Assembly (NCBI RefSeq): GCF_000317225.1
Contig: NZ_AJLL01000035.1
Location: 1 to 64,000 of the forward strand
From: Fischerella thermalis PCC 7521
GTDB taxonomy: Bacteria > Cyanobacteriota > Cyanobacteriia > Cyanobacteriales > Nostocaceae
Direction of reading: 5' to 3'
Length of the DNA: 64,000 nt
A program made the translations under genes and the position numbers. Each line of letters opens with the position of its first letter. Position 1 is the first letter of the stretch. Under the pieces are notes generated by a model, which saw only the letters and a program-made list of their open reading frames with translations, was not told the origin of the DNA and did not search any database. Shown here piece after piece: positions 1,853-31,748 of the stretch.

Positions 1853-2623
1853 TTATCTATTTGATATATTAATTAATGTCTGTCCCATCCCCAACCTTGT
1901 CTTCATCCCCGTACCAGCAAAACGCGCATATTGAACTAATAAATTAGCCACATTTGCCAATAAAGAGTCAGCACGATTAAAAATGTGTAGCGTTACATCA
2001 CCCACAAATCCATTCACATAACCTCTATGTAATTGCCAACTTCTGGTTTGAATTTTGTGATTTTTCAGCAAAATCGCATTGCTGAGGTAAGCAATTAATT
2101 CATCACCTCCCAAATAAACAGGCGCAAAATTATTCCAGCGTTCTAGCCAACTGTGGAACATTAAATTTGGTACAGGTAGAGGTAGATTTGTTCCACCCTG
2201 AGAAAAAGCTGTGGGAGTGATAAACTGCAACTCAAACCGTCTGATTGCTTCTGGTTCATTTGCTACTAAATTTGTGTACAATTCTTCATAGCTGGTGATT
2301 TCATCTTCACGGTTGATAACGTTAAATTTAGCTCCAAGGAATTCTAAAGAGTCTGAGAGATGAAGATGAGAAATTGCTTTTGCTGAAACTTCCTGCAATC
2401 CAGATAGGGATAATTTGTAAAATTCCTCTGGATGGAAGGTGAAGAAATCTCGAGAAGTGGAGCATAAACCGATAATTCCTGAGCAGGAAACAGAAGGAAT
2501 TGCTTCGTTTCCCATTTCTAAACCTAGTTGTTGATGCAGTTGTTTTACCAGTTCCAAGCTATAGGAACGGGGTAAAATTGTCGGTTCTGATACACTTAAT
2601 ATCCAGGTAGAACGAATTAGCAT
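1853..2623 (-). CDS. cas6: CRISPR pre-crRNA endoribonuclease Cas6
   Basis: Cas6 cuts CRISPR repeat transcripts into the crRNAs loaded on the Csm complex. The 256-residue protein shows the Cas6 C-terminal half: GFVGDVTLHIF strand, ANLLVQYARFAGTG helix, and the glycine-rich loop GTGMKTRLGMGQ (from about residue 237), which binds repeat RNA in this family. The N-terminal ferredoxin-like half is poorly conserved, as usual. Its ATG overlaps the csm5 stop by one base. The gene sits inside the csm operon, so processing is encoded here even though no repeat array is seen in this window. The catalytic residue cannot be assigned by eye. Confidence 0.9.
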   Translation of the reverse strand: MLIRSTWILSVSEPTILPRSYSLELVKQLHQQLGLEMGNEAIPSVSCSGIIGLCSTSRDFFTFHPEEFYKLSLSGLQEVSAKAISHLHLSDSLEFLGAKFNVINREDEITSYEELYTNLVANEPEAIRRFELQFITPTAFSQGGTNLPLPVPNLMFHSWLERWNNFAPVYLGGDELIAYLSNAILLKNHKIQTRSWQLHRGYVNGFVGDVTLHIFNRADSLLANVANLLVQYARFAGTGMKTRLGMGQTLINISNR

Positions 2624-3912
2624 TAGTCTTGTAGATTTTTGAATTTAACCCATCCCGGTACAAACTTAATTTCACCTTTGGTATTCATCACAGTTCGCCT
2701 AGACTTTGGTGCTTCAAAACCAGGCGCTTTTAAACCACAAGTATCGCGAATATCTTCCCGCAGTTCATCATCAAGACACAAGCCAATAGTAGTCCCATTC
2801 ATTCCACTACCCCAACCCAGTCTCAAACTATAGGGACATTTTTCTGGTTCGTAAAATTCGCGGATATAATTAAAATCTAAATTTTTCCCTGATGCTTGAG
2901 GATTGTTCTTAATTTCTTGCCAATAATCATGCTCATAGTCCCATTGTTCTTGAGTAAATTCTTGACATATTTGTAAGAGTTCGTCCAAGTTATTAAAGGG
3001 TAACTTCATTCCCTGTTTGTGTGTGAACCATGAAAGCATTTCTGTATCTAATGTAATGGTGAATTCTGTTTGGACATTTCGCACCATTTCAGTATAGATA
3101 GATGCTTTATATTTAGCTAAGTAATCTGAAAATCTGCTAGAAACTACTACTTCCGCAACAACAGGGATGTTAACAGGTATTTCTTGACCTTTCTTTGTTT
3201 TAATTTTGCCTTCTAAAAGTGGTGCTGAATCTGTAATTTTGATAGCTCTGAAAAAGTCTGTATTTGGCCCTTTACCAGGAAAGTTTCTCTCTTGATATGT
3301 GAGGTGGAATTCTGAGAATAAACTATCCATGAATAGCTCATCATCAAGAAATTTCTGCTGATGTTGATTAATTTTTCCTAATTTTTCTCTCAATTTTTTC
3401 TCGATTTCGCTCACCCGCTTTGGCAAAGGTAATTGAAAACGATCTGCGTGTTTCAATAGATAATATGCGATCGCAGTTCTAATTGCTCCTTTAATCGAAG
3501 AACCAGGAATAAATAATTGTCCCATCCCATTCCGAATCATGGGACGCAAATCTGTAATTCTCTCAGATGTCAACTTTTGGCTGACGGCTTCTTTGGGGAA
3601 AATTGGACAGCCTTGTGTATCTTTAGCTTTCCACCACTCGGAACCAAAGGCTTGTTTTAAAAGTCCTGTGATGTCTTGGCGTTCTTCAATTGCTTGAATA
3701 TAATCGTTGAAAAATCGTCCTCCTTGCGCTAATAAACCCTTTGCTAAGGCTTCTTGGTTGGGGAAATAGACTTTTCTATCTGTCTGTACATATTCAAAAG
3801 GATTTAATATTGATACTGATGAGCCAATATGTAAAATTGGACTTGTCATTAGTATCTTTTTTGATTGATAAAAATCAGGTTTCTTGAGAGCAGATTCGGG
3901 AGAAACCACCAT
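2623..3912 (-). CDS. csm5: Type III-A RAMP protein Csm5
   Basis: Csm5 caps the end of the Csm3 backbone of the type III-A complex and contacts the 3' part of the crRNA. The 429-residue protein has the RAMP signatures SPILHIGSSVSILNPFEYV near the N-terminus and IPGSSIKGAIRTA about 140 residues in. It ends with the Csm5-type stretch containing FEAPKSRRTVM. An internal ATG at 3849 would remove the first beta strand, so the start at 3912 is preferred. That start lies 4 bp after the csm4 stop. The glycine loop SSIKG and the aspartate-free N-terminal region match a non-catalytic subunit. The assignment is firm from motifs, length and order. Confidence 0.93.
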   Translation of the reverse strand: MVVSPESALKKPDFYQSKKILMTSPILHIGSSVSILNPFEYVQTDRKVYFPNQEALAKGLLAQGGRFFNDYIQAIEERQDITGLLKQAFGSEWWKAKDTQGCPIFPKEAVSQKLTSERITDLRPMIRNGMGQLFIPGSSIKGAIRTAIAYYLLKHADRFQLPLPKRVSEIEKKLREKLGKINQHQQKFLDDELFMDSLFSEFHLTYQERNFPGKGPNTDFFRAIKITDSAPLLEGKIKTKKGQEIPVNIPVVAEVVVSSRFSDYLAKYKASIYTEMVRNVQTEFTITLDTEMLSWFTHKQGMKLPFNNLDELLQICQEFTQEQWDYEHDYWQEIKNNPQASGKNLDFNYIREFYEPEKCPYSLRLGWGSGMNGTTIGLCLDDELREDIRDTCGLKAPGFEAPKSRRTVMNTKGEIKFVPGWVKFKNLQD

Positions 3913-3916
3913 AATA

Positions 3917-4954
3917 TTATTTATCCTGTGCTTTAATTGGCAAACTTAAGCTAATACCACTACGGTAAATTCGATATTTGTTGAAACCGTTGGGTGTAAC
4001 ATCTACTAGCTTTCCTTGTGGTGGTGCTAGAAAAACTGAACCTTCGCTAAACATGCGCACCATTTTACGTCGGAGTTGATTTTCTGCTATCCAACCACCC
4101 CGTTCTTGAATGTCATAGCTAGCTTGATTTAAAAAGTCAGTTGTTATGGGTGTATCCCAAAACAAACTCATCAGCGCGTGATGATTTCCAGCGGAAAAAT
4201 CTACCACTTTTTGCCACGTTTCTGGTAATTCTAACCACTTAACTTGAAATCTTCCTGCACCACTCGAACGTTCTCCTCCCAGTCCTTCTTCTCCTAATAG
4301 ATACAAAGCAGCTTTTAGCTTGTCTACTAATTTCTCTCCTTCTGGAGATAATTGTATGAGAAAGTATAAACCAGCCGGATTTTTCTCCCACTCAAATTGA
4401 ACAAAACCAGTATGGTAAAAGTTTGTTGCTCTGGTTACGCGGTCTACAGCAACTTTCGGAACTTTGTTAATTTTAAAGGCTTTTTTGTAGTCAAAGGTTC
4501 CTGCTGCTTTTTTACCAGTAGTTTGAGCAATTAATTCTTGGCGATCGCTCTCTTGAAACCCTTCTGTTTGATACCATCTTTGCCATATTTCTAAAGGCAA
4601 ATAATTAAGCTTTTTGTAGGTTTTGAAAAAAGCTAGATCGTCATCAGGATAGTTGATGGGAAACTTCAGGGGACGGGGAAGATAGTAAATTGTTTCTTGT
4701 CCAACTTGTCGATAAATAAAGGTGGAACTGATACGGAAAGGGGGAGTTAATTCAGGTTGCTCTTTTGAAGGAAATATCTGCAATAATTCCTCAACTGCAT
4801 TTTTACCGAATAACCGCGCGTAGACACTAACCCATGCACTAAATAAAGTATCGGAACGGACGCGATCGCTCGTTTTTTCCATCCCTATTCCCACTTCCCC
4901 AAAATGCGCGGGATTGCGACCAAAGTTGAGTTTTACTAATTTCCAGACACTCAT
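3917..4954 (-). CDS. csm4: Type III-A RAMP protein Csm4
   Basis: Csm4 is the Cas5-like subunit that holds the 5' handle of the crRNA and joins Cas10 to the Csm3 filament. The 345-residue protein starts VWKLVKLNFGRNPAHFGEVG and continues with the Csm4 stretch SDTLFSAWVSVYARLFG. Near residue 220 it has the glycine-rich loop GEEGLGGERSSGAGRF, the characteristic Csm4 GGERSSGxG motif. It starts 2 bp after csm3 ends and is followed 4 bp later by csm5. All expected parts are present, and nothing suggests a frameshift. Confidence 0.95.
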   Translation of the reverse strand: MSVWKLVKLNFGRNPAHFGEVGIGMEKTSDRVRSDTLFSAWVSVYARLFGKNAVEELLQIFPSKEQPELTPPFRISSTFIYRQVGQETIYYLPRPLKFPINYPDDDLAFFKTYKKLNYLPLEIWQRWYQTEGFQESDRQELIAQTTGKKAAGTFDYKKAFKINKVPKVAVDRVTRATNFYHTGFVQFEWEKNPAGLYFLIQLSPEGEKLVDKLKAALYLLGEEGLGGERSSGAGRFQVKWLELPETWQKVVDFSAGNHHALMSLFWDTPITTDFLNQASYDIQERGGWIAENQLRRKMVRMFSEGSVFLAPPQGKLVDVTPNGFNKYRIYRSGISLSLPIKAQDK

Positions 4955-4956
4955 GA

Positions 4957-5934
4957 TTAATCTCCTGGTAATAATCGATTTACGTACTCGCTTAAACTTC
5001 CAAAGTTATCTAAGAGTGCTTGGGTGTTGGGAATGGTTTCTAATGGTTGTAAAGCTGATGTACCAGGAGGAGTACTGGTCATTTGGCGATACTGTGCCAA
5101 GCTGCGATAGGAAAACTGAAAGTTCTGAAATCTGACTTTTCCGTAACCTCTAGAACCATGTCCGCCAAGTGCATCATCTTCTAAAATGGCCAGTGCGATC
5201 GCAATATTTTGCAAGTCTTCAATGACTTGGTTTTTGTTTTCAACGGTGTAAACTAATTCAAACTGGAATTTTGATCCAGCGGGTACACGTTCTAACTGTC
5301 TGGGATTTGCTGCTGCTGTTACTCGGTCAATACCGTTTTCAAATTTCCACTCAGTCATGTATAAACCAGTGTCGACTTGCTTGAGTTTTTCTGCTGATTC
5401 TGGTACTAAATGGCAATCTCGAATAATCAATCGAGCTGGCGCGTTACGTCCGCGATTGATTTTAATACAATTTTGATTTTGTATTGTAGAAGTAGGATTA
5501 TCTTTATTTTCTTCATATAATCCTTCTTCTCTAGCAGTTTCAATTGGCATCCAAAATTTGGAACCCCCGGTAGAACCAAATAGACGACTAATTTGACAGG
5601 TGTTAGCACCTTCGTAGGCAATAAATCTACCTGCTTCTACTTCAGTAAATCCATCTTTTAAATCGTCACTTTCATAGCGCCAAGTACCGCTTCCTCCTGA
5701 ACGATTTAGGGGTTTATTTAATAACCTTTCTAAGATAGAACGCAGTTTACCTTTAATTGAAGAACCAGGTAAATAAGGATATTTTGTGAGAGGGTCACGA
5801 ATTACAGGTTTATCCAGTCCACCGATATCCAAATTTTCGCCACCACCACCAATATGCAATCCTGTTTCAGCAGAAAGTTGACTAGTGAGGGTTAATTTAC
5901 CAAGTAGGGGTTTTTGTGCGTATGATACTGGCAT
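4957..5934 (-). CDS. csm3: Type III-A backbone and target-RNA nuclease Csm3
   Basis: Csm3 forms the repeated backbone of the Csm complex and cuts bound target RNA at 6-nt steps. The 325-residue protein has TGLHIGGGGENLDIGGLDKP near the N-terminus. D41 in GGLDKP aligns with the catalytic Asp of characterised Csm3 (D32/D33), so target RNA cleavage should be intact. Next comes YPYLPGSSIKGKLRS, and near residue 258 the RAMP loop GGHGSRGYGKVRF. It is longer than many Csm3 proteins because of a C-terminal extension of about 50 residues. It starts 2 bp after csm2 ends. Confidence 0.96.
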   Translation of the reverse strand: MPVSYAQKPLLGKLTLTSQLSAETGLHIGGGGENLDIGGLDKPVIRDPLTKYPYLPGSSIKGKLRSILERLLNKPLNRSGGSGTWRYESDDLKDGFTEVEAGRFIAYEGANTCQISRLFGSTGGSKFWMPIETAREEGLYEENKDNPTSTIQNQNCIKINRGRNAPARLIIRDCHLVPESAEKLKQVDTGLYMTEWKFENGIDRVTAAANPRQLERVPAGSKFQFELVYTVENKNQVIEDLQNIAIALAILEDDALGGHGSRGYGKVRFQNFQFSYRSLAQYRQMTSTPPGTSALQPLETIPNTQALLDNFGSLSEYVNRLLPGD

Positions 5935-5936
5935 AT

Positions 5937-6416
5937 TTACTTTCCACCTTCAGCTTTGTGATAAGCAATAATTGATTCAAGTAATTGAACTAGCCGTTCA
6001 AAATCTTCTTTGCTGTGAACTTTGTCAATAGCAGCTGACATAACTTCATCTAATGGCTTTGCTGCTTTTTGTCTGGCAGCAGCATATGCTAATTTTGGTT
6101 TCAGCAGAACAACTTCTGTTTCAACTTTGGCAAATTCACCTGTTTCCGCTAAGTCAGCTTTTAAGCGATTTACAGCATCTAAAAATTTGCGAACTTGGTT
6201 CGTTTCTAATCGTTGCTGTTTGAGATAAGGCCCAAATTGCTCGGCGTGTTTAACTAAGTCTCGAATGGGATATGTTTTTAATCCATCAGGTAAATTTTTA
6301 ATAGTTTTAATAATTTCATTTTTAATAGTTTTAGCATTTTCGTCAACTGTATTTTGTGTTTTACTCACGTTAGTTTGAGGAATTGATGGGTTAGATGGTT
6401 TTTTGAGTTTTGTCAT
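5937..6416 (-). CDS. csm2: Type III-A small subunit Csm2
   Basis: The small helical subunit of the Csm complex that lines the crRNA-target duplex. The 159-residue protein has a polar N-terminal tail of about 35 residues. It is followed by the Csm2 helices: LVKHAEQFGPYLKQQRL, TNQVRKFLDAVNRLK, and a C-terminal DFERLVQLLESIIAYHK. The pattern of two long amphipathic helices around VRKFLDAV is typical. The start lies 5 bp after the cas10 stop, which supports coupled translation. Confidence 0.92.
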   Translation of the reverse strand: MTKLKKPSNPSIPQTNVSKTQNTVDENAKTIKNEIIKTIKNLPDGLKTYPIRDLVKHAEQFGPYLKQQRLETNQVRKFLDAVNRLKADLAETGEFAKVETEVVLLKPKLAYAAARQKAAKPLDEVMSAAIDKVHSKEDFERLVQLLESIIAYHKAEGGK

Positions 6417-6421
6417 ATAAA

Positions 6422-8785
6422 TTACTGGCGATTTAAAAGTTCAATCCAAGTTGCGATCGCCCGAAAATAAGGCGCATTGTATGGACTTTTTAAGGAAGTC
6501 CGAAAATCACTGTCATCTAGTACATTTTTGGGTAATCTCGCTAAAGTATAAGCAATCTTAGGTAGATGCAAATAATAGCGAGTTCCTAAAGCCTCCTCCG
6601 ATTTTTTATTGTCTTCAAACTTTTCTAATGCTTTTTCTTGTGTTTCTGCTGTGATAAGTAAGTTACGCACAAAATTACGGGAATAATTAACCCCGATATT
6701 TTGCTGTTCTAATCTCTCGACAAATGGTAATATACCCAGTAGCTTTGGTCTAGTTTCTGAATGTAAATATTTTTGAATTTCAGAATCAATCATGCTGATA
6801 TCTTCTATTCCCAGCCATTCATCCCACTTAAATACTTGATCAAATAGACCTAAGCTATCTTTACCATTACTTTTGGCATTTTCTTCTGCTTCTCCTGATT
6901 CATCCGCTGCTTTGTAAAAGGGAAATTTAACATCATCAATACTAATACCACCTGATAAAGTAATATCTGGGTTATTTCCTGTATAAGCACGGAATGACTG
7001 GTAAACATCAAAGGCAAATTCTACAACTTCATTCCACGTACCACTAACAAATAAATCATCGCCTCCTGCATAGATAAATAGTAAATTATCTCGCCTATTT
7101 GCAGTTAAAAATTCTGCTTTTTTCTGTAAAATATCTGCAATTAATTTATTTGAATCAAGGAAATTTTCTTGCCTAAATTCAGCTAAACTGTTGAGATAAA
7201 CTTTAAAGAAATAACTCATCTGGCGCGAAAGTCCAGCAATTCTTGGCAAAGTTTTATTTTCTCCTAAACCCTCAGCAAAGATTCTCCCCAAATTATCTAC
7301 ATCCATTCGCAGATATCCAAGTCTATCTATACCTTTGGCTTTTTTCGCCATTTCGTTAGCACGGATAATAAAACCTTTTTCTTCACTACTTTCTTGAGCA
7401 TAGTTTCCCAGCAGTAAAGGAAAAGATTTCTTAAATTGGGAGAATTTATAATGCTCTATATTCCAGTCATTTACTAACAAGGCTGTGTCATTATCTGGAA
7501 CTATTTGTTTCCATCTGCGAAACAAATGATAGTAAACATTTTTAGCATCACGTTTATCAGTAGCAGGAAGTTCAAAAGCAAGTGTGTCAAACTTATCCTC
7601 AAAGTTTTCACTTTGCGATCGCACTATCACTTCAACTCTTAATAACTGTCCTCCTAACTCAAACATTCTGCAACAAGTTTCACAAGCAAGCACCGAATCT
7701 GGCTCGTTCTTATTAAGCTGCTTTAATTTCTCTGGTTCCACATCATCACGATGACAAACTTTACAAGGTTCGTGACTTTCACTTTCTTGAATAAATTTGC
7801 TAATATTTTCAGCAAACTTACGAGACTTTTGTGCAGCTAGTTTTTTACTTGTCAATTCTGACCAATATTCGGCAAACTTTGCAGTGGTAATATCTGTGAT
7901 GGGGAAGTCTAAACAATCAAGTGCGAGAAAAATTTTGCCTTGAAACTCACCCAAAAGCCATTCATTAAACTGTTGACAAATTTCCTCAACTATGCTTTTA
8001 ACTGATTCTATTGCAGGAGCTAATATATATAAATTACCACCACCTGCGTAAATAACATTTGTACGTGGTAATTCTAACGTCTCCAAAAGTTGCTGTACTA
8101 CTTCTTCCGTAACTAGTTCCAAGTAAAAGCTGCGCGCACGCAAAGATTTCAGCGCACCATCAGAAGATATAGTGTAAATAAATTTTTGAATACCTGATAA
8201 ATCGCCTGCAATTAAAGTTAGATTATTGCTTTCAGGATTATTTGCTAGTGCAGCAGCAACAGCAGCAGTACTTTTAGCTATATCTATTAATGCAATATCC
8301 AAACCACCAAAACTGATGAAAGAACCATATTTTTCCAGAATCAAAGTCAGCAAAGATAGGTTATTTAAATCTCTATCGTCATCGAGTTTATCTAATTCTT
8401 GTTTAATTTCATGTTTCAGTTTACTGAAATCTTCTAATGAAGGTTCCTTTTCTACGGGGTAAGATATTTTAGGATTACAATCGCCAATAACATCTGGCTT
8501 CCAATAATGTTGTTGATGCTGATTTTGACTCTTTTTCTCTTCGTCTTTTTCCAAGTTTACTAAGTCAAATAACAGACGCAAGGCTTTTGGGTTTTCCTCG
8601 CTATTCCAAGAAAGTAATCCCTGTGCTTCTGCAACAGCTTTTTGGATGACATCCTCATTACTATTTGCTGTTATTAACCTTGACAATTTATCTTTTAATT
8701 TCGAGTCTGTCCAATCCGCTAGAACCCTAACGGCTTCTTGGATGACTTGCAAAGCAGCTTGTTCAGCAACACGTAATTGTTTCAT
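6422..8785 (-). CDS. cas10: Type III-A signature protein Cas10/Csm1, HD motif lost, GGDD intact
   Basis: The large subunit of the Csm complex, 787 residues. Order: a divergent helical N-terminal region (1-160); the segment LDIALIDIAKSTAAVAAAL (162-180), where active homologues carry a D..H..K/T HD-associated stretch; palm 1 with GDLSGIQKFIY (194-203); a zinc-ribbon CKVC at 341-344 with CETCC at 368-372; palm 2 with IYAGGDDLFVSG and GGDD at 574-577; and a C-terminal helical domain. GGDD is the cyclase motif that makes cyclic oligoadenylate from ATP. No His-Asp pair occurs in the first 190 residues, so target-activated ssDNA cleavage by the HD domain is probably absent. The ATG overlaps the csx3 stop by 4 bp. 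Confidence 0.96.
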   Translation of the reverse strand: MKQLRVAEQAALQVIQEAVRVLADWTDSKLKDKLSRLITANSNEDVIQKAVAEAQGLLSWNSEENPKALRLLFDLVNLEKDEEKKSQNQHQQHYWKPDVIGDCNPKISYPVEKEPSLEDFSKLKHEIKQELDKLDDDRDLNNLSLLTLILEKYGSFISFGGLDIALIDIAKSTAAVAAALANNPESNNLTLIAGDLSGIQKFIYTISSDGALKSLRARSFYLELVTEEVVQQLLETLELPRTNVIYAGGGNLYILAPAIESVKSIVEEICQQFNEWLLGEFQGKIFLALDCLDFPITDITTAKFAEYWSELTSKKLAAQKSRKFAENISKFIQESESHEPCKVCHRDDVEPEKLKQLNKNEPDSVLACETCCRMFELGGQLLRVEVIVRSQSENFEDKFDTLAFELPATDKRDAKNVYYHLFRRWKQIVPDNDTALLVNDWNIEHYKFSQFKKSFPLLLGNYAQESSEEKGFIIRANEMAKKAKGIDRLGYLRMDVDNLGRIFAEGLGENKTLPRIAGLSRQMSYFFKVYLNSLAEFRQENFLDSNKLIADILQKKAEFLTANRRDNLLFIYAGGDDLFVSGTWNEVVEFAFDVYQSFRAYTGNNPDITLSGGISIDDVKFPFYKAADESGEAEENAKSNGKDSLGLFDQVFKWDEWLGIEDISMIDSEIQKYLHSETRPKLLGILPFVERLEQQNIGVNYSRNFVRNLLITAETQEKALEKFEDNKKSEEALGTRYYLHLPKIAYTLARLPKNVLDDSDFRTSLKSPYNAPYFRAIATWIELLNRQ

Positions 8786-9702
8786 TGTTTACTACCCAAC
8801 CCTACTAAAACTTTTGCCAAGACCTGCACCATCCCCCTCCTGGAAACATCCTCTCCTCGCACAAGACGGTGAACTTTACCTGTCAACACAGGCGACTCAG
8901 ACTCAATCACATCCTCTTTATCCTCAAGATCGCTGTGGATGATTGCAACTATCCGCAACCCCAGCGATTCGCAAAACTCTTGCCATTCGGGAATTTTCTC
9001 GTTTTTCCCAGATAAAATTACCGCATGTGTTGCTTCTCGCATAATGATGCGATTTTCGTCAGTTATTCTTCCGCCAACGTCAATGATATTTAGGGGTGTG
9101 TTTGCATTCCGCACCCAACTTGCAGCTTTGGTTGCAAACTCTGGGGTAAATTTCGCCTTGTATGTTGCTTTTAACTGTTGTGCTAATTCTAAATCGCGCT
9201 GTGCAGCCTCGGAATACCATGCACCCTCACCATCTGGACAAGCGGTAATCACATAAGGATAGGGTGCGCCTGCAATGTTAGAAATTGCTTGCTTTAAACC
9301 TTCGCGCAAACAAGATTTTCCCGATTGGGAAGGGCCACAAATTACAACTTTTGGGTAAATTTTATCCTTGTGCGGTTCGTCTGTTTCGATCAGTTCGCCT
9401 ATCTTGTATGCGGGAGTATGAGAGACTGCTACAATAAAGGATTTGTAGCCTTTTATACCTATTTTTGGGTCAAAAACTGCGATCGCACTATATAAATGAG
9501 ATACCTTGTGTGCTATCAGGTAACTAACAGCTACAGATGCAGGCCCATCAATTTTAAGTAGTTTGCCCCCAGCAAGTTCTCCCAGTGTTATCATCTCATC
9601 TAAACGTGCCGCCGCATCCCGCACTACTTGGTCGCCCATTGCAGGTTGACCAAACCTGACTTTTAACACGTCACCTTCAAGGTTTATCTGATACGAAGTC
9701 AT
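8782..9702 (-). CDS. csx3: Csx3 (Crn3-type) ring nuclease domain fused to an AAA-like P-loop domain
   Basis: First gene of the operon. Residues 1 to about 110 are a Csx3 domain (TIGR02579) with VSHLYSAIAVFDPKIG. H69 and D78 have the same 9-residue spacing as the catalytic His60 and Asp69 of archaeal Csx3, an enzyme that degrades cA4. Residues from about 115 form a P-loop NTPase with Walker A GPSQSGKS (123-130) and a later LNIIDVGG that may be Walker B. Free-standing Csx3 is about 110 residues, so this is a fusion, of a kind known in cyanobacterial type III loci. Csx3 works as a multimer, and the AAA-like part may gate this; that is inference. It overlaps cas10 by 4 bp, fixing sensor-maker and messenger-degrader at coupled expression. 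Confidence 0.9.
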   Translation of the reverse strand: MTSYQINLEGDVLKVRFGQPAMGDQVVRDAAARLDEMITLGELAGGKLLKIDGPASVAVSYLIAHKVSHLYSAIAVFDPKIGIKGYKSFIVAVSHTPAYKIGELIETDEPHKDKIYPKVVICGPSQSGKSCLREGLKQAISNIAGAPYPYVITACPDGEGAWYSEAAQRDLELAQQLKATYKAKFTPEFATKAASWVRNANTPLNIIDVGGRITDENRIIMREATHAVILSGKNEKIPEWQEFCESLGLRIVAIIHSDLEDKEDVIESESPVLTGKVHRLVRGEDVSRRGMVQVLAKVLVGLGSKQ

Positions 9703-9766
9703 AGAAATTAACAGTATTTCTACTTAAAATTTTAATAATCAAATATTAATTAATCAAGTGTCCCAG

Positions 9767-9772
9767 ATTATA
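9767..9772 (-). promoter_or_regulatory. Putative -10 box (TATAAT) of the type III operon
   Basis: A perfect TATAAT on the minus strand, 65 bp upstream of the csx3 ATG. A transcription start near 9760 would give a leader of about 58 nt. No clear -35 hexamer is seen because the expected place is occupied by the CRP-like palindrome. Confidence 0.5.
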
Positions 9773-9784
9773 CTCAGGATTATG

Positions 9785-9800
9785 TGTGATACAAATCACA
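9785..9800. promoter_or_regulatory. CRP-type binding site TGTGA-N6-TCACA
   Basis: The sequence TGTGATACAAATCACA has both perfect half-sites of the CRP family consensus, which cyanobacterial cAMP receptor proteins (SYCRP1, AnCrpA) also recognise. Its centre lies about 33 bp upstream of the predicted start of transcription, on top of the -35 region. That position would favour repression, or direct contact with polymerase, rather than classical class II activation at -41.5. Binding is inferred from the sequence only. Confidence 0.55.
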
Positions 9801-9822
9801 TATTTTCCTGATTTGGTATCAT

Positions 9823-9852
9823 GCCAATTTTAGATTTTAGATTTTGGATTGG
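9823..9852. repeat. Short tandem repeat (TTTTAGA/TTTTGGA heptamers)
   Basis: About four imperfect heptamers, typical of Nostocales spacers, inside the divergent csx3/WYL intergenic region. Confidence 0.7.
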
Positions 9853-9869: not shown

Positions 9870-9954
9870 TCATTACCTTGGCTGGTTGCATGGATACATC
9901 ATAAATCCTGCTGGAAGAGGCTGCTTCCAATTATGATTAACCTAGAGGTAATGA
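9870..9954. other. 85-bp nested inverted repeat in the csx3/WYL intergenic region
   Basis: Four stems are nested around one centre: TCATTACCT (9870-9878) with AGGTAATGA (9946-9954); GGTT (9884-9887) with AACC (9939-9942); ATCATAA (9898-9904) with TTATGAT (9931-9937); TGGAAG (9912-9917) with CTTCCA (9924-9929). All four pair perfectly and in register. It could be a structured leader of the WYL transcript, a small RNA, or a palindromic mobile relic. I do not recognise it as a named family. Confidence 0.6.
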
Positions 9955-10067: not shown

Positions 10068-11447
10068 GTGCTGGAGCCAGTTTTTCGAGATATTCCCAAC
10101 GTCGAACTGTTGCAGTGGTTAGCACGTGGTTCTCTCAAACAAAATCTACAGCGAGCAGTTCGTTTATGGGTGTGGTTGTCTTCGCTTTATGGTGAAAACC
10201 GCTTGGCTTTAAATGACGGTTTTACCTATGCTCAATGGCGGGATGTGTTTTTTACTTCCACGCACCCCAAAGGTGAAACTGTTCCCAAACTACACGATGA
10301 AAACTGTCCCTGTGCTAAAACTACCGCACAATGGCTATTTGATCCAAAAATAGGAATTTCGGAAACTGAATGGAAACAATCAGTTGTGTCCCACGCAGGT
10401 ATAAATAAATCTCAACTGGATGAATTACTCAAAACACGTTTGTTTGGAGTAACTCGCCGTTCCCTGCAAGCTGATTTGGAAACTTTAGCTGAGTTGGGAT
10501 GGTTGGTATACAAAAACCAAAAGTATGATCGCGTCACTGAATTACCGTTACGCCCTACAACTATAAATAATGAAGTAAATATAGCGAAACTTGGTGCTTA
10601 CGAATTAAATTTTCTCGAGGAAGATTTGAGTGCGATCGCTGAAAACCATTCCCAAAAAATCAACGGTGTACAACGCTTTTTCCTGAAACTTGATTACGTT
10701 ATTCCCCGTAGTACAATTGATTTAGTTGAAGACTGGCAATACGAATTAAGACAACTTTGGACAAAAACTCCAGTTCCACCGATTAAGCTCACCTACAACA
10801 GCGCTAAGGTGAGAGATACCGTTGATTGCATCGTTTATCCAGTATGCATCTACTACGTGCAGAGAGCAGTTTATCTGTGTGCCTATGGTGAAAGTCCCCT
10901 ACGACAAGGCGATTGGTATAATTTTCGCCTTGATCGCATTCAAAACATGATCTCCCTAGAGTGGACAAACCCTCAGCTTCCCCATAATTTGCAACAAAGT
11001 TACCAACAGAAATCTTTACCCACTCCAGATGACATCGCAGTCGCAATGAGCAAAGCATGGGGTTTTGATTTCTATTTGCCTGCTCAACTGATGCTACTCA
11101 GATTTGAGCGAGAATTTCATGATCGCTACGTTAAAGGTACTGAACGCCACGATACCTTTGCGGAAATTACTTACCAACAAGCACAACATTTAATTCGGCG
11201 CGAGGTTAAACAAGCGGAACCACAGCGAGCACTGTTGAAGATTTTGGCGAATCGTTCACCGAATGATGCCTATTATCAAGTAAGTATCCGATACCAAGAT
11301 CATAAATATAGAGATAATAACGTCATTATGCGCCTGCGAGCTTGGCGTCCTAAATGCGAAGTCTTGCTTCCCTTTGATTTACGAAAAAGTATTGCTGCTG
11401 AGGTAGCAAAAGAATCCCTGTTTTACCATCAAGATTCCCTGTTGTGA
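10068..11447 (+). CDS. WYL-domain CRISPR-associated regulator, TIGR03985 family
   Basis: A 459-residue protein of the cyanobacterial CRISPR-linked TIGR03985 family. The N-terminal half contains a winged-helix-like stretch, LFGVTRRSLQADLETLAELG. The C-terminal half has WYL-domain features: IVYPVCIYYVQRAVYLCAYG followed by WYNFRLDRIQNM. WYL domains sense ligands, often nucleic acid related, and control defence genes. The start is GTG at 10068, because an in-frame stop lies 24 bp upstream and AAAGGT at 10055-10060 is a reasonable ribosome site. It is divergent from csx3 across 365 bp, so it is the prime candidate for regulating the type III operon. The family call is confident; the target is inferred. 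Confidence 0.85.
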   Translation: MLEPVFRDIPNVELLQWLARGSLKQNLQRAVRLWVWLSSLYGENRLALNDGFTYAQWRDVFFTSTHPKGETVPKLHDENCPCAKTTAQWLFDPKIGISETEWKQSVVSHAGINKSQLDELLKTRLFGVTRRSLQADLETLAELGWLVYKNQKYDRVTELPLRPTTINNEVNIAKLGAYELNFLEEDLSAIAENHSQKINGVQRFFLKLDYVIPRSTIDLVEDWQYELRQLWTKTPVPPIKLTYNSAKVRDTVDCIVYPVCIYYVQRAVYLCAYGESPLRQGDWYNFRLDRIQNMISLEWTNPQLPHNLQQSYQQKSLPTPDDIAVAMSKAWGFDFYLPAQLMLLRFEREFHDRYVKGTERHDTFAEITYQQAQHLIRREVKQAEPQRALLKILANRSPNDAYYQVSIRYQDHKYRDNNVIMRLRAWRPKCEVLLPFDLRKSIAAEVAKESLFYHQDSLL

Positions 11448-12016
11448 TGAATACATTGAAACTAACAGATAAATTTGCAGAAGCACTAGTTTATGCAACT
11501 CGTCTCCATGCTCATCAAACCCGTAAAATTAGCGGTGTTCCTTATGTCACACACTTATTAAGCGTGACAGCACTGGTACTAGAAGCAGGAGGGACTGAAG
11601 AAGAAGCGATCGCAGCTTTGTTACACGATGCGATCGAAGATCAAGGTGGAAGTCAAACCCGCGAGGAAATTCGTCAGAAATTTGGAGACACAGTAGTAGC
11701 AATCATTGATGGCTGTACTGAATGCGACATTTACCCAAAACCACCTTGGCAAGAACGCAAAAAAAGATATTTGCATAACTTGCGTCATGCTTCACCCTCC
11801 ATCCGGCGAGTGTCTTTGGCGGATAAACTACACAATGCCAGGTCGTTATTGGCAGACTCGCGACAATATGGCAACAGCATTTGGAATGAATTTAAAGCTG
11901 GTAAAGAAGGAACTTTGTGGTTTTACCAGGAACTTTTACGAGTTTACCGTGAAAATGGTTCAGACTTGATGACTGAGGAGTTTGCACGGGTAATTGAGGA
12001 ACTGTGTCAGGTTTGA
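11447..12016 (+). CDS. HD-domain hydrolase, (p)ppGpp-hydrolase (MESH1/SpoT-HD) type
   Basis: A 189-residue single-domain protein with the metal-binding pattern of RelA/SpoT HD domains: H in ATRLHAHQTRK, LLHDAIEDQGG (HD plus the ED pair typical of (p)ppGpp hydrolases), and ADKLHNARSLL. No synthetase, TGS or ACT domain follows, so it resembles small alarmone hydrolases. The ATG overlaps the TGA of the WYL regulator gene (TGATG); a GTG 3 bp earlier is also possible. The coupling implies a shared operon. A paralogue lies at 30792-31367. The substrate could be ppGpp, another nucleotide, or a CRISPR-related messenger. Confidence 0.85.
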   Translation: MNTLKLTDKFAEALVYATRLHAHQTRKISGVPYVTHLLSVTALVLEAGGTEEEAIAALLHDAIEDQGGSQTREEIRQKFGDTVVAIIDGCTECDIYPKPPWQERKKRYLHNLRHASPSIRRVSLADKLHNARSLLADSRQYGNSIWNEFKAGKEGTLWFYQELLRVYRENGSDLMTEEFARVIEELCQV

Positions 12017-30791: not shown

Positions 30792-31367
30792 TTACCTCTC
30801 ATCTTTTACTACCACCCTCTCCAACTCCGAAACTACCCGTTCTAATTCCGCAAAAATTGGACTAGAACCAGTTTGGTAAAAAGCATTTACCAATGCCCGA
30901 TAATACCAAAGCGTACCTGCTTTACCACCTTGAAAACGTTGCCAAAGCGATTCACCCACAATCCGATAATCCTTGAGAATTGACTGGGCATTGTGCAGTT
31001 TATCAGCCGCACTCACAAGTAACACAGAAGAAGAAGCACTAAGAATATGAGCAATGTATGCTTCTTTACGTTCTCGCCACGGCGGTTTAGGTGTAGTATC
31101 GGCATCCGTACAACCATCGACAATTGCAGCTACATTATCACCAAAACGACGGCGAATTTCTTCCCGTGTAGCAGCACCGCCTTGATCCTCGACAGCATCA
31201 TGTAAAAGTGCAGCTATAGCTTCATCTTCATTTGCCCCATATTCCAAGGCAATACTAGCAACACCCAACAAATGAGCAACGTAGGGAACACCTGAACCTT
31301 TGCGAACCTGGTTCGCGTGGAGTTGGGTAGCGTAGATAAGAGCTTGGGTAAAGCGTTCTGATAACAT
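30792..31367 (-). CDS. HD-domain hydrolase, paralogue of the CRISPR-adjacent HD protein
   Basis: A 191-residue protein closely similar to the one at 11447-12016: YATQLHANQVRKGSGVPYV, LLHDAVEDQGGAATREEIR, VDGCTDADTTPKPPWRERK and ADKLHNAQSIL align residue for residue. The HD and ED pairs of the (p)ppGpp-hydrolase family are intact. The start at 31367 (MLSERFTQAL) gives the paralogue's length; the frame could extend to 31457, but those residues do not match. It stands alone between prs and typA. Confidence 0.85.
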   Translation of the reverse strand: MLSERFTQALIYATQLHANQVRKGSGVPYVAHLLGVASIALEYGANEDEAIAALLHDAVEDQGGAATREEIRRRFGDNVAAIVDGCTDADTTPKPPWRERKEAYIAHILSASSSVLLVSAADKLHNAQSILKDYRIVGESLWQRFQGGKAGTLWYYRALVNAFYQTGSSPIFAELERVVSELERVVVKDER

Positions 31368-31748
31368 TTTGAGAAATGGTAACGCAAACAAATGTAGGGG
31401 CGAAGCATTTGGATGAAAATTACTTGGGCTGGGCCTTCTTTCTATACTGACATCCAAATAAAAAAATAAGTAATTTTATATATCCTCTTTGTGTCTTTGT
31501 GCCTTTGTGGTGAAAAAATAATTTTTTCAACACCAAGACACTAAGACACCAAGCAATTTTCATCTTCCTGCTACCAGGCGTACGAGCCTAAAGCTTTTTC
31601 GTTGCCTTGGAATAATTTAGATTACGATAGAATTGTAGAATTGTTAAGGCTTATTTACAGAATCTGTACATTCCCTCAAATTCTGTTAGAGCAGTCCACC
31701 AATATATATAAACTGTAACCCTTTCTAGAGTACTGGAACGCGCTTATT
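31368..31748. other. 381-bp spacer upstream of typA
   Basis: Contains a spacer repeat CAACACCAAGACACTAAG (about 31529-31546) preceded by its near-complement (TTTGTGCCTTTGTGGTG at 31494-31510), forming an imperfect palindrome. The typA promoter must lie in the last 150 bp; no consensus is obvious. Confidence 0.5.

Follow-up and report, generated by a model that had tools for sequence, protein, structure and literature searches.

What would a stand-alone HD-domain protein of the alarmone hydrolase type do in the operon of a WYL regulator at a type III CRISPR locus? This question is raised by a gene pair of the cyanobacterium Fischerella thermalis PCC 7521, which we followed in a window of 64,000 nucleotides (positions 1 to 64,000 of contig NZ_AJLL01000035.1). 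Small alarmone hydrolases are known, as are WYL proteins at CRISPR loci and the ability of type III immunity to cause dormancy through RNA cleavage, and exit from this dormancy is known mainly for cA4 and ring nucleases. Our main reading, to which we assign a probability of roughly four in ten, is that the pair is an accessory cassette which regulates itself within cyanobacterial type III CRISPR systems and whose HD protein would erase alarmones. The WYL and Csx3-AAA models of PADLOC match the locus, and none of its models matches the HD protein at E 0.01. In the available portions of the literature on WYL proteins, TIGR03985, the genes of pSYSA and links between alarmones and type III systems, we found no description of an HD gene beside TIGR03985, and an earlier account may exist elsewhere in these sources.

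The WYL-HD gene pair and the divergent type III-A operon

The regulator gene (10068 to 11447, plus strand) starts with GTG in a reading frame that is closed upstream at about 10047, encodes 459 amino acids and ends in a TGA at 11445 to 11447. Its stop overlaps by one base (TGATG) with the ATG of the HD gene (11447 to 12016, plus strand), which encodes 189 amino acids, or 190 if an in-frame GTG at 11444 is used instead. No clear ribosome-binding site was seen before the HD gene on inspection of the sequence, which fits a translational coupling of HD to WYL. The sequence-only reading that drew attention to this locus had described a TGATG-joined pair, led by a regulator of the TIGR03985 family and divergent from a type III operon, and this description holds: the reading frames lie where it placed them, the WYL gene matches TIGR03985 with 315.6 bits against a cut-off of 60 (Pfam WYL, 29.1 against 21.8), and the pair points away from a csx3-AAA/cas10/csm operon on the minus strand.

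This operon begins with Csx3-AAA (8782 to 9702), in which a Csx3 domain of the ring-nuclease family is joined to a P-loop domain (GPSQSGKS); the call comes from PADLOC (PDLC01045, 404.7 bits), with the Csx3 models of Pfam and NCBIfam just or well below their cut-offs. On the same strand follow cas10/csm1 (6422 to 8785; TIGR02578, 617.9 bits against 170), csm2 (5937 to 6416; 69.6 against 30.6), csm3 (4957 to 5934; 221.8 against 90), csm4 (3917 to 4954; 343.7 against 55), an ORF called csm5 from its position (2623 to 3912), cas6 (1853 to 2623; PADLOC), the CARF-HEPN gene csx1 (609 to 1850; PADLOC and an RNDIAH motif) and a CARF-domain protein of 165 amino acids (78 to 575; PADLOC). With Cas10/Csm1 and Csm2 to Csm4 all above their cut-offs, the module is of type III-A. 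Its Cas10 carries GGDD and no HD motif in the first 60 residues and, together with the RNDIAH motif of Csx1, this makes signalling rather than DNA cleavage its likely output.

The divergent promoter contains a csx3 remnant (9749 to 9826, minus strand; tblastn, 69% identity over 26 residues) of a stand-alone gene that is intact at this place in relatives, many of which have it adjoining csx3-AAA; it is decayed also in Fischerella muscicola (L165). Csx3 is a cA4 ring nuclease according to the available part of PMC7371418, and deletion of the csx3 homologue of pSYSA left plasmid defence unaffected according to that of PMC9676260, which speaks against our main reading. In several relatives, Lys, Arg, Asn, Gln or Thr takes the place of the motif His of Csx3-AAA (SHTP in the window), and the fused Csx3 domain may be inactive there. 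A perfect TGTGA-N6-TCACA at 9785 to 9800, shared with 21 of 81 upstream regions, was considered as a CRP-type site and dismissed because it falls into the Csx3 coding motif KYVICITHN (seen in the relatives L169 and L174), here within the csx3 remnant.

Recurrence of the pair and two kinds of HD protein

Among 386 cyanobacterial genomes, TIGR03985 was found in 56 (51 over the cut-off, at 60 places) and a relative of the HD protein at E 1e-20 in 88; HD adjoins WYL at 14 of the 60 above-cut-off places. Besides that of the window, we examined 61 regions around WYL places and found HD next to a full-length WYL gene in 13 of them and next to a WYL remnant once (L064); in L036 and L087 it lies 3 to 4 kb from WYL, beyond csx3. 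Counting the window, HD follows WYL on the same strand in 13 of the 14 adjacent full-length pairs, the exception being L093 with HD in front. Nine of these 13 have a possible HD start within a range from an 8-nt overlap to a 23-nt gap, and the first possible start is about 68, 98, 105 and 215 nt downstream in L062, L058, L057 and L038, respectively.

A set of named loci, the best 80 of 105 and thus biased towards the WYL protein of the window, was reduced to 75 when five without 700 bp of downstream sequence were dropped, and of these, 43 carry HD directly downstream of WYL (41 found by script plus L178 and L180, whose HD frames open over 100 nt ahead of the WYL stop; the copy in L168 is in pieces). 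Four others have it elsewhere in the locus (47 of 75 altogether). By simple arithmetic, two genes of a 5-Mb genome would lie within 1 kb of each other by chance in about 4 of 10,000 pairs, and the adjacency of HD and WYL exceeds chance. The association that the sequence-only reading had proposed to count is therefore present in other strains, and its remark that the pair is unusual for type III loci has to be corrected, since the pair recurs in TIGR03985-marked cyanobacterial type III loci including that of the model plasmid pSYSA. The nearest named genome that we found is that of Fischerella muscicola PCC 7414, with a WYL protein of 95% identity.

The effector modules beside the pair vary among plasmids. 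It stands beside a III-A module on a plasmid of Nostoc UHCC 0302, beside III-B modules on pSYSA and pNPM1, and beside plasmid modules with Csx19, TIGR03986 or Csx10, which we take to be III-D; the pair therefore tracks the regulator and not one effector subtype. With the proteins of the window itself as phmmer seeds, these locus surveys under-count cas genes of types III-B and III-D. In Gloeothece citriformis, the pair is near cas1-cas2 with no effector operon in the stretch shown; in Allocoleopsis, HD is downstream of two csx3 genes and not of WYL; and the HD copy of Nostoc UHCC 0870 is broken. No CRISPR gene is listed near the HD matches of Gloeothece verrucosa and Caballeronia.

The pair of Synechocystis pSYSA, Sll7078 and the HD protein encoded downstream (WP_011153747 and WP_011153746), has the same gene order, with 23 nt between the genes, and is likewise divergent from a gene at the place of slr7080. 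Sll7078 is a TIGR03985 protein according to the available part of PMC7283877, and WP_011153748 would be Slr7080, as we infer from that of PMC9676260. Unlike the pair of the window, the pSYSA pair is beside a III-B module (CRISPR3). Another tie between CRISPR signalling and ppGpp synthesis or HD phosphohydrolases is described in the available part of PMC10910872, namely CARF or SAVED proteins with RelA or HD domains that are rare and CRISPR-linked; at our locus, by contrast, HD has a gene of its own, which is coupled to that of a WYL regulator.

The HD gene is an optional part of TIGR03985 loci. It is patchily distributed and changes 19 times or more along the WYL tree, compared to 23.4 with shuffled labels (a quick tree with long branches), a patchiness that counts against our main reading, and it is present as pieces or broken copies in L168, L186, L187, L206 and L208. 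Across 55 pairs, the distances of WYL and HD proteins correlate with r 0.83, a value that common species history inflates. For the same 34 pairs that also have Csx3-AAA, r is 0.86 for WYL and HD compared to 0.64 for WYL and Csx3-AAA, both inflated in the same way.

The linked HD proteins are set apart from a second kind. In a tree of 77 HD proteins, 20 members from several families (15 WYL-adjacent, five not) form a group with support 98/93, outside of which are 54 unlinked rows as well as L036 and L087, with the unlinked L153 at the base; 21 of 100 match rows were omitted from this tree (seven unlinked ones at 52 to 53% identity and 14 weaker ones). The window holds its own control, an unlinked HD paralogue outside the cassette (30792 to 31457, minus strand; 56% identity over the match) between ORFs that we take to be prs and bipA. 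The prs- and bipA-like neighbours have matches in 18 and nine, respectively, of 59 unlinked HD regions, whereas the 61 WYL regions have none, and this paralogue is possibly a housekeeping alarmone hydrolase. In 60 unlinked HD regions there was no match to WYL or cas seeds, all of which came from this III-A window. When cas10 was counted with Pfam PF22335 in 54 chosen genomes, a match on the same contig and no more than 20 kb away was found for 14 of 21 linked-type HD genes (a set with one broken copy, G042) and for two of 34 others (Fisher p 2e-6, uncorrected for kinship). We consider the HD gene a candidate accessory gene of these loci, given a linkage that spans several lineages and goes beyond the paralogue control.

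These comparisons bear on the view that HD is a mere passenger, a housekeeping alarmone hydrolase captured beside WYL with no role in immunity. HD genes that are missing or broken in many loci would fit such a history, as would the presence of the unlinked paralogue in cyanobacteria, yet the linked proteins form their own group across several families, keep all motif residues described below, recur in tight junctions with WYL and are found beside different effector modules. We thus regard a passenger as quite unlikely. It does count against our main reading of an alarmone-erasing cassette that a long RelA/SpoT-type match and another HD protein are already present in the same genome.

Identity and likely activity of the HD protein

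The protein belongs to the Pfam family HD_4 (91.9 bits against a cut-off of 27.2), with HD_4 and HD as its only Pfam matches and the RelA/SpoT models of NCBIfam matching below their cut-offs. With 189 amino acids and no synthetase domain, it is a stand-alone HD_4 protein in the size range of about 180 to 210 amino acids given for small alarmone hydrolases in the available part of PMC10434055. Its HD...ED signature, on which the sequence-only reading had built the assignment to alarmone hydrolases, is formed by H60-D61 and E64-D65, and the family match agrees with that assignment. All 67 HD copies from WYL loci keep ten residues (H21, R26, K27, H36, H60, D61, E64, D65, D126 and N130) that presumably correspond to the metal-binding and catalytic motifs of RSH hydrolases. 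The same ten are intact also in 55 of 56 copies of the unlinked-type control group, which includes L036 and L087 with their HD genes at 3 to 4 kb from WYL and from which six rows (L097, L134, L137, L141, L143 and L153) were set aside.

The best PDB sequence match is RelH of Leptospira levettii (7qoe, E 6.5e-57), and RelH of Corynebacterium glutamicum (7qoc) is the other close solved relative. An AlphaFold2 model of the protein (pLDDT 93.4) superposes on 7qoe with Z 27.7 (rmsd 1.7 over 181 residues) and on 7qoc with Z 27.6 (rmsd 1.5 over 183), whereas Mesh1 reaches a Z of about 22 and Rel or SpoT no more than 18.7. It is therefore well supported as a hydrolase of the small alarmone hydrolase class and of the RelH type, and a link to ppGpp is suggested by family, model fold and motif residues. 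Phage origin of the gene was considered and gave no lead, as the 24 phage records that match are all below 60% identity (33.9 to 36.8% for the ten listed).

The linked proteins resemble the RelH/MixSpo hydrolases 7qoe and 7qoc in size, fold and motif residues and differ from them in two ways, their place in the operon of a CRISPR regulator and the residue at position 148. At this position, 53 of 56 control copies and both RelH sequences have Arg and Lmo0812 has Tyr, whereas the WYL-linked proteins mostly carry Glu, Lys, Gln or Tyr, with Arg kept in a few deep members. This change hints at a different substrate or partner contact, and the substrate of the linked proteins may not be the ancestral one. 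Small alarmone hydrolase activity covers both (p)ppGpp and (p)ppApp, as stated in the available part of PMC10434055.

Could the substrate then be another 2'- or 3'-phosphorylated adenine nucleotide, either linear products of cA4 cleavage or, as for MESH1, NADPH or PAPS? The relaxation of Arg 148 would be in keeping with this idea, as would the fact that most of the loci listed also carry Csx3 and that the structural matches include complexes of MESH1 with NADPH (Z 21.9) and PAPS (Z 21.7), but the two RelH structures match better, the WYL-HD pairs of L058 and L084 have no Csx3 match in the region, and the P-loop domain of Csx3-AAA could be assigned to no nucleotide-kinase family. We consider such a substrate unlikely. 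A related notion of Csx3-AAA and HD as a kinase-phosphatase pair was abandoned, with weak P-loop matches being all that was found (Pfam G-alpha at E 0.12, KTI12 at E 0.13 and a designed or small phosphate-loop protein at E 0.029).

Some small alarmone hydrolases act as antitoxins of toxic synthetases, and the linked HD protein could in the same way counter alarmones whose source is a phage or a toxic small alarmone synthetase. ATFaRel is indeed listed among the small alarmone hydrolases in the available part of PMC10434055. Against this, no synthetase partner appeared among the family matches of the ten locus proteins scanned, and the HD gene is linked to a CRISPR regulator instead, which leaves an antitoxin or counter-measure improbable.

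A candidate WYL operator and a possible reset of type III immunity

Upstream of WYL in the divergent promoter is the palindrome TGGAAGAGGCTGCTTCCA (9912 to 9929), which we propose as a candidate WYL operator. In 65 of 81 loci, its pattern TGGAA-N8-TTCCA occurs in the 500 bp upstream of WYL; within 330 bp, it is found in 62 of 80, compared to at most three for any dyad in 20 shuffles that keep single bases only. In L035, whose divergent promoter is enlarged or split, WYL and csx3 are each preceded by a copy, and in L093, with HD as the leading gene, it is HD that the palindrome precedes. Such recurrence makes it probably the WYL operator, as judged from sequence patterns, though this prediction is less firm than the enzyme class of the HD protein. 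The exact palindrome is absent from 10 of 47 HD-bearing loci and from three of seven plasmid loci, among them pSYSA with its 38-kb stretch, and is present anywhere in just 30 of 61 regions of the genome sample, which counts against our main reading. Gloeothece and pNPM1 have no copy either, and the palindrome is tied to part of the TIGR03985 family. A global WYL regulon was rejected, since the pattern occurs nine times in the genome itself compared to 10 for the reversed pattern and 143 times compared to 171 over 14 genomes, and we treat the palindrome as local because it shows no genome-wide excess over its reversal.

Several further observations concern the surroundings of this element. Fischerella muscicola (L165, about 5778 to 5917) has about 140 bases between palindrome and WYL that are absent from the window, and Allocoleopsis (L158, 8648) has a second palindrome copy directly 3' of HD and before the next gene. 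Extra palindromes lie a few kb from the WYL promoter in L045 (5157 and 8479) and L046 (5064 and 8384, as well as 10484). The genome of the window has a second TIGR03985 gene at a contig end (L047; G000:C7:40-792), with no palindrome in the stretch.

The WYL model is weaker than that of the HD protein (pLDDT 81.1, pTM 0.48). Its best Foldseek matches are DriD (E 6.9e-9), PafBC, CapW and BrxR, and VIA-align superposes it on the ssDNA-bound C-domain of DriD with Z 11.0 (rmsd 4.4 over 189 residues) and on ssDNA-bound CapW with Z 8.1 (rmsd 5.6 over 158). In its model, the regulator shares the domain arrangement of these proteins, of which BrxR and CapW are regulators of defence, and control of a divergent or upstream promoter is likely to be its mode of action as well. 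It differs from them in its length of 459 amino acids with a longer N-terminal part, in having an NCBIfam family, a palindrome of its own and an HD partner.

The sequence-only reading had suggested that HD makes or destroys a small-molecule ligand of WYL, so that sensor and eraser would form a pair that resets the regulator. The translational coupling of the genes speaks for this model, as does the WYL-HD distance correlation being the closest among the 34 pairs compared above. It is weakly disfavoured by the solved WYL relatives, including DriD and CapW with ssDNA, which an HD_4 enzyme of this type is not expected to degrade, and by the WYL loci without HD, 24 of 29 of which still carry the palindrome. 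We therefore find this model rather unlikely.

According to our main reading of an autoregulated, alarmone-erasing cassette, the WYL protein would bind TGGAA-N8-TTCCA in the divergent promoter and sense infection or damage through a ligand that is probably ssDNA or another nucleic-acid fragment. The ligand-bound regulator would then alter transcription both ways, towards csx3 and the cas10-csm operon as well as towards WYL-HD. As a RelH-type enzyme, HD would remove the 3'-pyrophosphate of (p)ppGpp or (p)ppApp and thereby limit or end the stress signal arising once Csx1 has cleaved RNA, just as Csx3 would end the cA4 signal, so that two signal erasers, one for cA4 and one for an alarmone-type nucleotide, would be placed under one operator. 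A broader version, which we put forward tentatively as a realistic possibility, has HD as a second-signal eraser besides Csx3, a WYL-coupled RelH-like hydrolase with a shifted pocket that would clear either alarmones or a CRISPR-made 3'-phosphorylated adenine nucleotide.

For the cyanobacteria, these loci hint that the type III immune response and the ppGpp stress response are switched together in many of them. A hydrolase of the stringent-response class in the operon of the regulator itself makes a link between CRISPR and alarmones directly testable in many cyanobacteria and on pSYSA, and the recurrent palindrome offers a concrete candidate binding site for the WYL protein. If the broader version above holds true, immune dormancy would have its start as well as its end set by one operator.
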